From: Runella sp.
Lineage (GTDB): Bacteria > Bacteroidota > Bacteroidia > Cytophagales > Spirosomataceae
Reading direction: 5' to 3'
Length of the DNA stretch: 64,000 nucleotides
NCBI GenBank assembly: GCA_023254175.1
Contig: JALQYJ010000107.1
Location: 1-64,000, forward strand
Shown: positions 6,649 to 15,562 of the stretch, piece after piece
Numbering within the stretch: position 1 is the first letter of the stretch
Layout: each line of letters begins with the position of its first letter
Program-made: the position numbers and the translations under genes
The notes under the pieces: model-generated
Seen by the model: only the letters and a program-made list of their open reading frames with translations
The model's database searches: none
Told to the model about the DNA's origin: nothing

Positions 6649-7110
6649 TTATTGTTCACTCTTCACGGAGGCCTTCTCGTATTTTTTTGGAGCGTACAAA
6701 AACCCAAATGCTTCGGCACCGTCGCGTTCGTGGACTTTGTGGTGAATGTAATGCGCCCGAATGATACGATTGAGATAGCGATTGCTGGTTTTAAATTTGA
6801 TTTTGACCCGACGATGAACAATGACGTCGTGAAAAAGAAAATACCCAATGCCGTAGAGGGTTATGCCAAAACCAACGTACATCAACCAACGAAGCGATTC
6901 TACTTCTGAGCCTACCACGATGAGGCCTGTGGCTGACACGCCGAAAATAACTCCAAAAAGGTCATTGGTTTCCCACCAGCCTTTGTGGTGCACGTGGTGC
7001 GATTCGTGCCAGTTCCACATGATGCCGTGCATGATGTATTTGTGTGTAAACCAGGCAAAGCCTTCCATAAAAACAAACGTGCCGAGCACAAGAAGAAAAT
7101 TGAGTAGCAT
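6649..7110 (-). CDS. crtZ: Beta-carotene hydroxylase-type membrane di-iron enzyme
   Basis: A 153-residue integral membrane protein of the fatty acid hydroxylase/CrtZ family, which adds 3-hydroxyl groups to beta-carotene to give zeaxanthin. Histidine clusters for the di-iron site are visible: HKYIMHGIMWNWHESHHVHH, FFHDVIVHRR and HYIHHKVHERDG. The length fits CrtZ rather than the longer sterol desaturases. No other carotenoid gene is in the window, so this is an orphan copy. It is divergent from the M3 peptidase; the shared 88-base intergenic region has an ATTTTGTT-4-AACAAAAT inverted repeat. Confidence 0.88.
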   Translation of the reverse strand: MLLNFLLVLGTFVFMEGFAWFTHKYIMHGIMWNWHESHHVHHKGWWETNDLFGVIFGVSATGLIVVGSEVESLRWLMYVGFGITLYGIGYFLFHDVIVHRRVKIKFKTSNRYLNRIIRAHYIHHKVHERDGAEAFGFLYAPKKYEKASVKSEQ

Positions 7111-13035: not shown

Positions 13036-13869
13036 ATGCCTGCTACGTATTATGAAGCGCGCTTGACGCTTAATCCTGATTTTAATGAAATCGTCATGGC
13101 CGAATTAGGCCAAATTGGCTACGAGTCGTTTGTCGAAACCGACGAAGGGCTTTTGGCTTATATTGTAGAAGAACAATTTGACGTGACCCAACTCCAACAA
13201 GTCATTGAAGACTATCAGTCGATGACGCCGATTGTGGTGGAATACCAACAACTAGAACCCAAAAACTGGAACGAAGAGTGGGAGAAAAACTACCAGCCGA
13301 TTGAAGTGGCAGGGAAAATCCGCGTACGTGCTTCGTACCACGAGCCGAATCCAGCGTTTCAGTACGAAATTGTGATTGACCCTAAAATGTCGTTTGGAAC
13401 GGGGCATCACGAAACTACCACGTTGGTCATGGAACAACAACTTTCGCTGGACCATCAGGGAAAATCGTTGCTCGACGTAGGAAGTGGTACGGGTATTTTA
13501 GCGATTTTGGGAGAAATGTTGGGTGCCATCAAACTCACCGCTTTCGACATCGAAGAATGGGCGTATCTCAATGCCGTCGAAAACGCCGAGATGAACGGTT
13601 GTAAACACACGACTGTTTTTCAAGGCACCATCGAAGATTGTCCGTACGATACCTACGACATCGTGCTGGCCAACATTAACCGTAATATTTTGCTTCGCGA
13701 AATCCCTATCTATGAAACGTTTTTGAAAGCGGGTGGTACGATGATGGTAAGCGGTTTTTACGAGTTTGATATCGAAGACATTACTCAAAAAGCCGAGGAA
13801 GTTGGGTTAAAGTTAGTAGCTCAAAAAACGCTCAATCAATGGGCTACTTTACGTTTTGAAAAACCATGA
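13036..13869 (+). CDS. prmA: Ribosomal protein L11 methyltransferase
   Basis: A 277-residue PrmA, which trimethylates several amino groups of ribosomal protein L11 using S-adenosylmethionine. The N-terminal ~90 residues form the L11-recognition domain; the linker PKNWNEEWEKNYQPIEV and IDPKMSFGTGHHETT are characteristic. The SAM motif is LLDVGSGTGILAI and the catalytic-domain motif is DIVLANINRNILL. Its stop overlaps the ATG of the next gene (ATGA), indicating translational coupling. Confidence 0.95.
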   Translation: MPATYYEARLTLNPDFNEIVMAELGQIGYESFVETDEGLLAYIVEEQFDVTQLQQVIEDYQSMTPIVVEYQQLEPKNWNEEWEKNYQPIEVAGKIRVRASYHEPNPAFQYEIVIDPKMSFGTGHHETTTLVMEQQLSLDHQGKSLLDVGSGTGILAILGEMLGAIKLTAFDIEEWAYLNAVENAEMNGCKHTTVFQGTIEDCPYDTYDIVLANINRNILLREIPIYETFLKAGGTMMVSGFYEFDIEDITQKAEEVGLKLVAQKTLNQWATLRFEKP

Positions 13870-14687
13870 AAGTAAGCATTTTAGGATGTGGTTGGCTAGG
13901 CTTGCCTTTGGCTAAAAAACTCATAGAGCAAAGACATACAGTAAGAGGCTCAACAACCCGAGCCGAAAAACTGAGCGAACTCCGTCGGGCAGGGATTGAA
14001 CCGCTTTGGTTGCAGTTGTCGCCCGAACTGAAAGGAATTGGCTGGGATTATTTGTTGGATACCGAAGTGTTGATTGTCAATATTCCACCGCGATTGGCGC
14101 AGACGGGGTCGGCATTTCACCCTGCTCAAATCGAACACTTGGCCGCGTTGTTGAAAAATAGCTCGGTGGGGCGGGTGATTTACGTAAGTTCAACGTCGGT
14201 TTATGCCGATGAGAATCGGACAGCTGTAGAAGACGATGTCACAACACCTGAGCAGTCTGCTTCACCTGCCTTGGTAGAAGCGGAGCGTATCATTCAAAAG
14301 GTAGGAAAAACATGGCTAGTGCTTCGTTGCGGCGGCCTGATGGGCTACGAACGCATTCCTGCAAAATACGTATCGGGTAAAAAAAATTTAACGACGGGGC
14401 ATTTACCCGTCAATTACCTCCATCGCGACGATGCGGTCAGCATCATTGAAACGTTTCTATCGTTGCCCGATGAGGCGTGGAACCAAGTCTACAATGCAGT
14501 GGCGCCACAGCATCCTACTCGGCGAGAGGTGTACTTAGGTAGTTGTGACCCTTTTGGCTTTGTACCTCCCACGTTTGAAGATAATGTCTCTGAACCGTAC
14601 AAGGTGATTTCGTCGAAGCACTTGCAATCGCAAATTCCGTATTCGTTTTTGTACCCTAATCCTTTGGATTTTTATTATTCGTTATAG
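13866..14687 (+). CDS. NAD-dependent epimerase/dehydratase-like protein (YeeZ type)
   Basis: A 273-residue Rossmann protein. The N-terminus MKVSILGCGWLGLPLAKKL has the GxGxxG nucleotide-binding loop of this small extended-SDR subgroup, and VIYVSSTSVYAD is the usual Ser/Tyr strand. The catalytic YxxxK is not evident, as in many YeeZ-like proteins, so activity is uncertain. It is cytoplasmic and overlaps prmA by four bases. Tail residues run into a palindrome cluster. Confidence 0.8.
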   Translation: MKVSILGCGWLGLPLAKKLIEQRHTVRGSTTRAEKLSELRRAGIEPLWLQLSPELKGIGWDYLLDTEVLIVNIPPRLAQTGSAFHPAQIEHLAALLKNSSVGRVIYVSSTSVYADENRTAVEDDVTTPEQSASPALVEAERIIQKVGKTWLVLRCGGLMGYERIPAKYVSGKKNLTTGHLPVNYLHRDDAVSIIETFLSLPDEAWNQVYNAVAPQHPTRREVYLGSCDPFGFVPPTFEDNVSEPYKVISSKHLQSQIPYSFLYPNPLDFYYSL

Positions 14688-14712: not shown

Positions 14713-14760
14713 TTCATTAAACAAAAACACCACTTAAAAGCGGTGTTTTTGTTTAATGAA
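14713..14760. repeat. Palindrome 1 with TTTGTTTAA cores, after the epimerase-like gene
   Basis: Perfect 19-base arms (14713-14731 and 14742-14760; TTCATTAAACAAAAACACC and complement) with a loop that adds three more pairs. It could be the terminator of prmA and its partner, since the right arm ends in a T-rich stretch, but each arm also carries the same TTAAACAAA/TTTGTTTAA core as palindromes 2 and 3. Confidence 0.75.
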
Positions 14761-14787
14761 TTATATTCAACATTAAACAGATATTAG

Positions 14788-14841
14788 AATTTTCGATTTT
14801 GTTTAATTTATAACCTCATAAATTAAACAAAATCGAAAATT
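14788..14841. repeat. Palindrome 2 with TTTGTTTAA cores
   Basis: Perfect 24-base arms at 14788-14811 and 14818-14841 around a 6-base loop (AACCTC). Each arm contains TTTTGTTTAATTT or its complement. The element lies about 210 bases before the sigma-factor ATG and is not next to a stop codon, so a terminator role alone does not explain it. Confidence 0.75.
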
Positions 14842-14977
14842 GTACTATTTTAAGTTAAATACCTTTTAAATGCTCAGAATTATCTAAAAAATTGGAAAAA
14901 AGAATTTCAAAAAAGCATTAAAATCAAGCTATTAATGGAAAATTAGTAGGGTTTTGTTCTAAAAATCCAAAAGCTGA

Positions 14978-15010
14978 TTTGGTTGTATCAATTCTTTTTG
15001 TTTAACTTTG
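14978..15010 (+). promoter_or_regulatory. Promoter of the sigma-factor gene
   Basis: TTTG (14978-14981) and TAACTTTG (15003-15010) are separated by 21 bases, a good fit to the Bacteroidota -33/-7 consensus. The ATG is 39 bases downstream of the -7 box. The -7 box overlaps the left arm of palindrome 3. Confidence 0.6.
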
Positions 15011-15032
15011 TTTCGTAAGAATTAAACAAAAA
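14995..15032. promoter_or_regulatory. Palindrome 3: probable operator over the sigma-gene promoter
   Basis: TTTTTGTTTAA (14995-15005) and TTAAACAAAAA (15022-15032) are perfect 11-base complements with a 16-base spacer. The left arm covers the start of the -7 box, so a protein bound here should affect transcription. The core is the same as in palindromes 1 and 2. Confidence 0.55.
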
Positions 15033-15049
15033 TCAACTGACTAAAAACC

Positions 15050-15562
15050 ATGACCGCCATAGAATTCACGCACCACCTATCCAAAGTTTCGAAGTCATTG
15101 AAACCGTTTGCAGTACGTCTTACCAAAGACCATGATGATGCTAATGATTTGCTTCAGGATACTTTGTTGAAAGCCTTTACTAACCGAGAGAAATACGCCG
15201 ACGGAACGAATCTCAAAGCGTGGCTTTACACCATTATGAAGAATACTTTTATCACCAACTATCAACGTATGGTGAGAAAAAATACCTTCATTGACGAGTC
15301 TGAAAATTTACACTATATCAATTCATTAGAAAATAGCACGGAAAATGACGCCGCTTCAACGTTTATTATGAACGACATCAATCGTGCTGTCGATGCGCTT
15401 GATGAAGCTTACCGTACCCCTTTTATGATGCACTATCGCGGGTTTAAATACCATGAGATAGCCGAACGCCTTCATATTCCTATTGGGACAGTTAAAAATA
15501 GGATTCATATTGCTCGTAAAGAATTGAAAGACAAATTGTACGTTTACGAACACGCTTTCTAG
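15050..15562 (+). CDS. ECF-like RNA polymerase sigma factor
   Basis: A 170-residue sigma-70 family protein with region 2 (FAVRLTKDHDDANDLLQDTLLKAFTNREKYADGTNLKAWLYTIMKNTFITNYQR, ~20-75) and region 4 (ALDEAYRTPFMMHYRGFKYHEIAERLHIPIGTVKNRIHIARKEL, ~115-160). No anti-sigma gene is adjacent. Proteins of this kind in Bacteroidota are often found near carotenoid/photolyase genes, and a crtZ lies 8 kb away, but no link is shown here. Three palindromes sharing one core precede it. Confidence 0.9.
   Translation: MTAIEFTHHLSKVSKSLKPFAVRLTKDHDDANDLLQDTLLKAFTNREKYADGTNLKAWLYTIMKNTFITNYQRMVRKNTFIDESENLHYINSLENSTENDAASTFIMNDINRAVDALDEAYRTPFMMHYRGFKYHEIAERLHIPIGTVKNRIHIARKELKDKLYVYEHAF

Follow-up and report, generated by a model that had tools for sequence, protein, structure and literature searches.

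In Myxococcus xanthus, a CarH-family repressor and a light-linked ECF sigma factor belong to one carotenoid circuit (CarA/CarH-CarQ), in which CarQ is held by the anti-sigma factor CarR and not by CarH. The CarA site was at first drawn as inverted repeats, and a later assessment of the Myxococcus sites favored direct repeats (PMC9304148). The known CarH operators are built from 11-bp direct repeats, three or four in tandem, whose contact motif is TnnACA (PMC8156234, PMC9304148). Among the Bacteroidota, flavobacterial crtI-crtB-crtZ clusters include an unnamed MerR gene, for which the passages found on these clusters give no operator, sigma link or photoreceptor assignment (PMC5887021, PMC11855829). 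The regulation of rhodopsin genes has been stated as open for Dokdonia (PMC3587595). MliR of Bizionia (PMC9478572), a known Bacteroidota MerR protein, was set aside as a comparison, as it is without an effector domain.

Here, we analyzed a 64,000-nt stretch of DNA from a Runella sp. (the window), in which three 32-bp dyads precede an ECF sigma factor gene. We consider it quite likely that these dyads are operators of a CarH/LitR-type B12 light switch, which would repress a sigma factor/carotenoid/rhodopsin/photolyase regulon in the dark and relieve it in the light. The candidate regulator resembles CarH/LitR of Thermus thermophilus and Bacillus megaterium in combining a MerR winged helix with a B12 four-helix bundle and a Rossmann domain, in its Wx9EH and ExH motifs and in its RxWExRY recognition helix; the putative operator, likewise, lies over a target promoter, is associated with carotenoid targets and has TnnACA in a half-site. 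This motif, contained in TTAAACAA, is short and thus only a lead. Unlike those systems, the Bacteroidia operator is an inverted N16 dyad with centres 24 bp apart, often in tandem at 41-46 bp, its targets take in ECF sigma, rhodopsin and fasciclin genes, and the Runella protein, with about 23% identity over the fold alignment, has L/M/V at the equivalent of H132. As in M. xanthus, a CarH-family protein and a light-linked ECF sigma factor appear in one circuit, but in Runella the sigma gene itself bears the dyads.

Dyads and putative promoter upstream of the sigma factor gene

The original prediction described three inverted repeats with a common TTTGTTTAA/TTAAACAAA core, six half-sites in all, within 320 bases 5' of a sigma factor gene. 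We found these repeats in place, but the unit that recurs in a single register is the dyad TTGTTTAA-N16-TTAAACAA, present in three copies (A, B and C; Table 1), and the first palindrome is a terminator. Dyads A, B and C were the only sites in the window with zero or one mismatch. An early search pattern with a 6-nt spacer gave no match.

Table 1. Features of the window and of related loci. Positions without a prefix refer to the window.
Feature	Position	Strand	Details
Palindrome 1, arms	14713-14735 / 14738-14760		
Palindrome 2, arms	14781-14811 / 14818-14848		
Palindrome 3, arms	about 14996-15008 / 15020-15032		
Terminator	14713-14760	+	intrinsic, probably bidirectional; for the upstream gene 13866-14687; terminator-like prediction on the minus strand
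Dyad A	14749-14780	.	TTGTTTAATGAATTATATTCAACATTAAACAG, one mismatch; conserved upstream of orthologs
Dyad B	14799-14830	.	TTGTTTAATTTATAACCTCATAAATTAAACAA, exact; forms the core of an AT-rich palindrome of greater length (14781-14848); conserved
Dyad C	14998-15029	.	TTGTTTAACTTTGTTTCGTAAGAATTAAACAA, exact; overlaps the promoter; conserved
Putative -33 box, TTTG	14978-14981	+	from sequence and alignment; next base G in most of 13 genomes
Putative -7 box, TAACTTTG	15003-15010	+	Bacteroidota TAnnTTTG; offset in dyad C, 5 nt; distance from the -33 TTTG, 21 nt
ECF sigma factor gene	15050-15562	+	Pfam Sigma70_r2 and Sigma70_r4_2
CarH/LitR-like gene, same genome	C177:1155-2027		290 aa; MerR_1 and B12-binding_2
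62-63 aa membrane protein genes	L065:6765-6953, L069:6112-6303, L071:6533-6724, L117:6574-6765		
PF01227/PF01242 loci	L276:1573-2283, L256:1670-2359, L251:1553-1969		

Palindrome 1 lies 25 nt past the stop codon at 14687 and has the GC-containing stem followed by a U-tract of an intrinsic terminator, with a predicted RNA fold of -25.6 kcal/mol (z -9.5). The 3' arm and U-tract of this terminator merge into the left half of dyad A; in three close relatives (L006-L008), terminator and dyad A are distinct, the former being a GC-rich hairpin upstream of the latter. As a terminator merging with dyad A, palindrome 1 was rejected as an operator. The arm 14713-14735, being part of the terminator, was rejected as an operator half, and the true partner of the half-site at 14749 is 14773-14780, which the original prediction had missed; the number of half-sites stays at six.

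Palindrome 2 consists of dyad B inside a longer AT-rich palindrome and also gives a good RNA fold (-28.4 kcal/mol). The original prediction itself had raised the objection that all three elements might be unrelated terminators, and this holds for palindrome 1 only. We regard an explanation by terminators, or by RNA hairpins that share no regulator, as very improbable: a GC-rich stem with a U-tract is missing from dyads B and C, dyad C straddles the promoter and would thus be transcribed at most in half, and both the fixed spacer and the conserved half-sites are found again before unrelated genes. The palindrome around dyad B is nearly perfect and, with its 31-nt arms, much longer than the dyad; outside the core, the arms differ in close relatives, yet pairing is partly kept, and the extension may itself be under selection.

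Bacteroidota promoters have the consensus TTTG at -33 and TAnnTTTG at -7. Both putative boxes were kept in the alignment of Runella sigma upstream regions, and dyad C covers the -7 box, as had been predicted for the third palindrome. The sigma factor (170 aa) matches PF04542 and PF08281 above the cut-off, having regions 2 and 4 without region 3. In Cyclobacteriaceae, the ortholog of its gene (66-70% identity) is located between a carH/litR-like gene and crtI-crtB.

Conservation and promoter geometry of the dyads

Exact dyads with spacers of 13-21 numbered 29 in 13 Runella genomes, as compared to none for the reversed control. When two mismatches were allowed, the window's own genome gave 13 dyads and 15 controls, which is the noise level. 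Therefore, only sites with zero or one mismatch are meaningful without other support, and weak (two-mismatch) sites were counted only when position or conservation spoke for them. An N13 match in one genome (G001), inside an ORF, was taken as chance. The aligned dyads showed an extra A/T-only position four bases inside each half, which is compatible with further contacts.

The expectation that the core would be kept before orthologous sigma genes was borne out at 31 of 31 loci, none of them selected for the dyad. All 13 Runella genomes have at least one dyad (two mismatches or fewer), and mostly two or three, within 450 bp of a sigma ortholog with 81-94% identity to that of the window. Dyads were likewise present within this distance at all 18 sigma orthologs situated beside the regulator gene in other Cytophagales genera (66-74% identity), mostly as two dyads in tandem, 43-46 bp apart. 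A further 43 loci, picked by their dyad, were used for geometry and not as evidence of presence.

Of 74 loci, 56 had TAnnTTTG inside a dyad; the offset was 15-16 in 50 of them, 10 in one and 5 in five, so that 55 of the 56 have an offset of 5, 15 or 16; offsets 5 and 16 are one helical turn apart. In more distant loci of the class, the -7 box is often just outside the dyad. In most relatives, a 21-nt spacer separates the -33 and -7 boxes and the dyad is placed between them, like the sites of MerR activators. Such a position would suit a regulator of the classical MerR activator type, which would respond to light or another signal by untwisting a promoter whose spacer is too long, with no repression in the dark. 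However, in the window's clade the dyad covers the -7 box and the region downstream, further dyads lie 200-250 bp upstream, and the characterized CarH proteins are repressors (PMC8156234). We consider activation of this kind unlikely, and favor repression from the dyads. The distance from dyad B to dyad C is 199-200, 188 or 179 bp, depending on the Runella clade, corresponding to about 19, 18 and 17 turns; since each is near a whole number of helical turns, these distances suggest looping.

Linkage of the dyads to a candidate MerR-B12 regulator gene

In 80 regulator loci of Cytophagales (1.49 Mb), we found 42 dyads (zero or one mismatch, spacer 16-17), as compared to one for the control. All except one of these were within about 1.2 kb of the regulator start (41 of 42), and the remaining dyad, at about 2 kb, stands directly before a sigma gene. 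When half-site spacings from 0 to 40 were counted in the same loci, a spacing of 16 occurred in 37 cases and 17 in five, with at most three for any other; exact half-sites favored no short direct-repeat spacing, the clustering being that of the inverted pair with N16. The gene order in Cyclobacteriaceae (e.g., Algoriphagus, Belliella and Imperialibacter) is cruF-crtZ (in most)-regulator-[dyads]-sigma-crtI-crtB.

A family scan detected an exact dyad in 177 of 223 genomes, and 28 of the 30 family loci examined had a dyad before the sigma ortholog. Among 395 Bacteroidia genomes, an exact dyad was present in 150, of which 146 also have the regulator, i.e., in 146 of 253 genomes with the regulator as compared to four of 142 without it (Fisher p=2e-32, kinship ignored); 107 of the 253 regulator-bearing genomes have no exact dyad. 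The sigma and regulator genes again stood beside dyads in the class loci, together with rhodopsin, GTP cyclohydrolase I and PTPS-family genes. This comparative evidence fits the original suggestion that several sites together form the operator of a single DNA-binding protein, perhaps a light regulator with a connection to carotenoid genes, and goes beyond it in pointing to a CarH/LitR-like MerR-B12 protein, encoded on another contig, as the probable regulator, and to a regulon with rhodopsin, fasciclin and photolyase genes.

The CarH/LitR-like protein

The candidate regulator has a MerR winged-helix N-terminus (PF13411, E 3.8e-16), and T. thermophilus CarH is its closest solved relative by sequence, the two being aligned via W139-x9-E149-H150 and E186-x-H188. 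In 26 orthologs, R21, W23, E24, R26 and Y27 of the RxWE.RY recognition helix are invariant, as are W139, E149 and H150 of the Wx9EH motif in the B12 four-helix bundle. Within the B12 motif D/ExHx2G-x41-SxT/V-x22-27-GG, E186, H188 and T235 are invariant in these orthologs and the rest is partly changed: the window's genome has S191 where the motif calls for G, and GG is replaced by TG263; the residue after W139, equivalent to CarH H132, is L/M/V. An AlphaFold model (pLDDT 86.6) has the DNA-binding domain, helix bundle and Rossmann domain in the fold of CarH, and its top Foldseek matches were the CarH structures 5c8d and 5c8e (E 7e-15; cobalamin domain TMt about 0.8). The protein scored 85.7 bits against the NCBIfam CarH equivalog model, the cut-off of which is 400, and we therefore name it CarH/LitR-like, as a relative rather than an equivalog.

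The genome of the window encodes only three MerR_1 proteins, the CarH/LitR-like one being the strongest match, and no dyad was found near the one other MerR_1 gene inspected. The regulator gene lies about 12 kb from crtI-crtB on the same contig. An alternative is that another DNA-binding protein binds the dyads, the CarH/LitR-like gene being merely a target or neighbor. Such a reading would account for an inverted dyad unlike the direct repeats of known CarH; moreover, the regulator and sigma genes are unlinked in Runella, and the regulator gene has no strong dyad in 10 of 13 Runella genomes, a one-mismatch dyad being present about 165 bp before it in three Runella species. Against this stand the tight linkage of dyad and regulator in Cytophagales, their class-wide co-occurrence and, in a survey covering the MerR_1 family, the small number of such proteins in the window's own genome. 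We judge a different binder to be improbable, somewhat more so than the activator mechanism considered above, and the CarH/LitR-like protein is the best candidate for binding the dyads.

Other genes preceded by dyads

The genome-wide motif search that had been proposed as a check placed Runella dyads before other genes as well. One group of exact dyads lies upstream of a fasciclin gene, after which come a CBS-domain gene and, in two species, a photolyase gene, and another, with spacers of 16, 17 or 18, before the genes for a conserved 62-aa membrane protein and a rhodopsin, beside lycopene cyclase (crtY) and Blh genes (Pfam assignments); the MerR-B12 gene itself, with its one-mismatch dyads, was the third. 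The membrane protein (62-63 aa), encoded just upstream of rhodopsin and with its own dyad in front, has no Pfam match. No dyad was found in the upstream stretch of Runella crtI-crtB that was examined, so these genes are not a direct target there.

In other Bacteroidia families, an exact dyad precedes genes for GTP cyclohydrolase I (PF01227) and a PTPS-family protein (PF01242). These targets possibly supply photolyase or cryptochrome with pterin/folate or deazaflavin cofactors.

Discussion

The dyads, their conservation and spacing, their overlap with the promoter, their target genes and their association with a carH/litR-like gene all support the operator reading, from which we infer binding, B12 dependence, light response, repression and the targets of the sigma factor. 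The 320-bp region would thus be the light-responsive promoter of the ECF sigma gene. By analogy with CarH (PMC8156234), the AdoCbl-bound CarH/LitR-like protein would occupy the dyads in the dark; bound to dyad C, it would lie over the -7 region and keep RNA polymerase out, and the two dyads about 200-250 bp upstream, A and B, would contribute cooperativity or looping. On illumination, the Co-C bond of the bound adenosylcobalamin would be cleaved, the protein would leave the DNA and the cell would make the sigma factor. This factor would in turn switch on carotenoid genes, a step suggested by its location in the Cyclobacteriaceae crt cluster. Direct targets of the same protein would include the small membrane protein gene and rhodopsin beside crtY-blh, the fasciclin-CBS(-photolyase) genes, in some species the regulator's own gene and, in other families, GTP cyclohydrolase I or PTPS-family genes.

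A CarH/LitR-type light circuit is itself already known. We found no description of this operator architecture, with its class-wide spread, in the open literature, which leaves out most subscription papers, and an earlier description is possible. More tentatively, and as a possibility we would not yet favor, the Bacteroidia CarH/LitR branch may have a binding mode undescribed for CarH, with long-spaced inverted dyads, often in tandem, in which the -7 position can shift by one helical turn; a tetramer may bridge dyads B and C by DNA looping, and light sensed through B12 may act directly on a proton-pumping rhodopsin and a sigma factor.

The class-wide 32-bp operator names a probable photoreceptor and defines a testable regulon (sigma, crt, rhodopsin, fasciclin, photolyase and GTP cyclohydrolase I genes). 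Within the CarH family, its architecture differs from that of the operators in Thermus, Bacillus and Myxococcus. Light-controlled promoter parts are few in this phylum, and the operator would provide a compact one.

Several further dyads and genes were observed. In a small-genome relative (G008), strong dyads are present at L072:6729-6760 and L118:5207-5238 (contigs C138 and C304), one before a membrane protein gene and one flanked by the genes for an aminotransferase and a large receptor-like protein, with no clear link to light. Two Runella genomes have in common an N17 dyad, TTGTTTAAATCTATCAATCATATGATTAAACAC (L119:5739-5771 and G012:C15:23318-23349), with no obvious target gene. The crtZ named in the original prediction as a carotenoid link is represented in the window by a crtZ-like gene at 6649-7110, but this gene has no dyad of its own nearby. 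It shares 44% identity with a crtZ-like gene of an Algoriphagus genome, in which that gene comes before the regulator.
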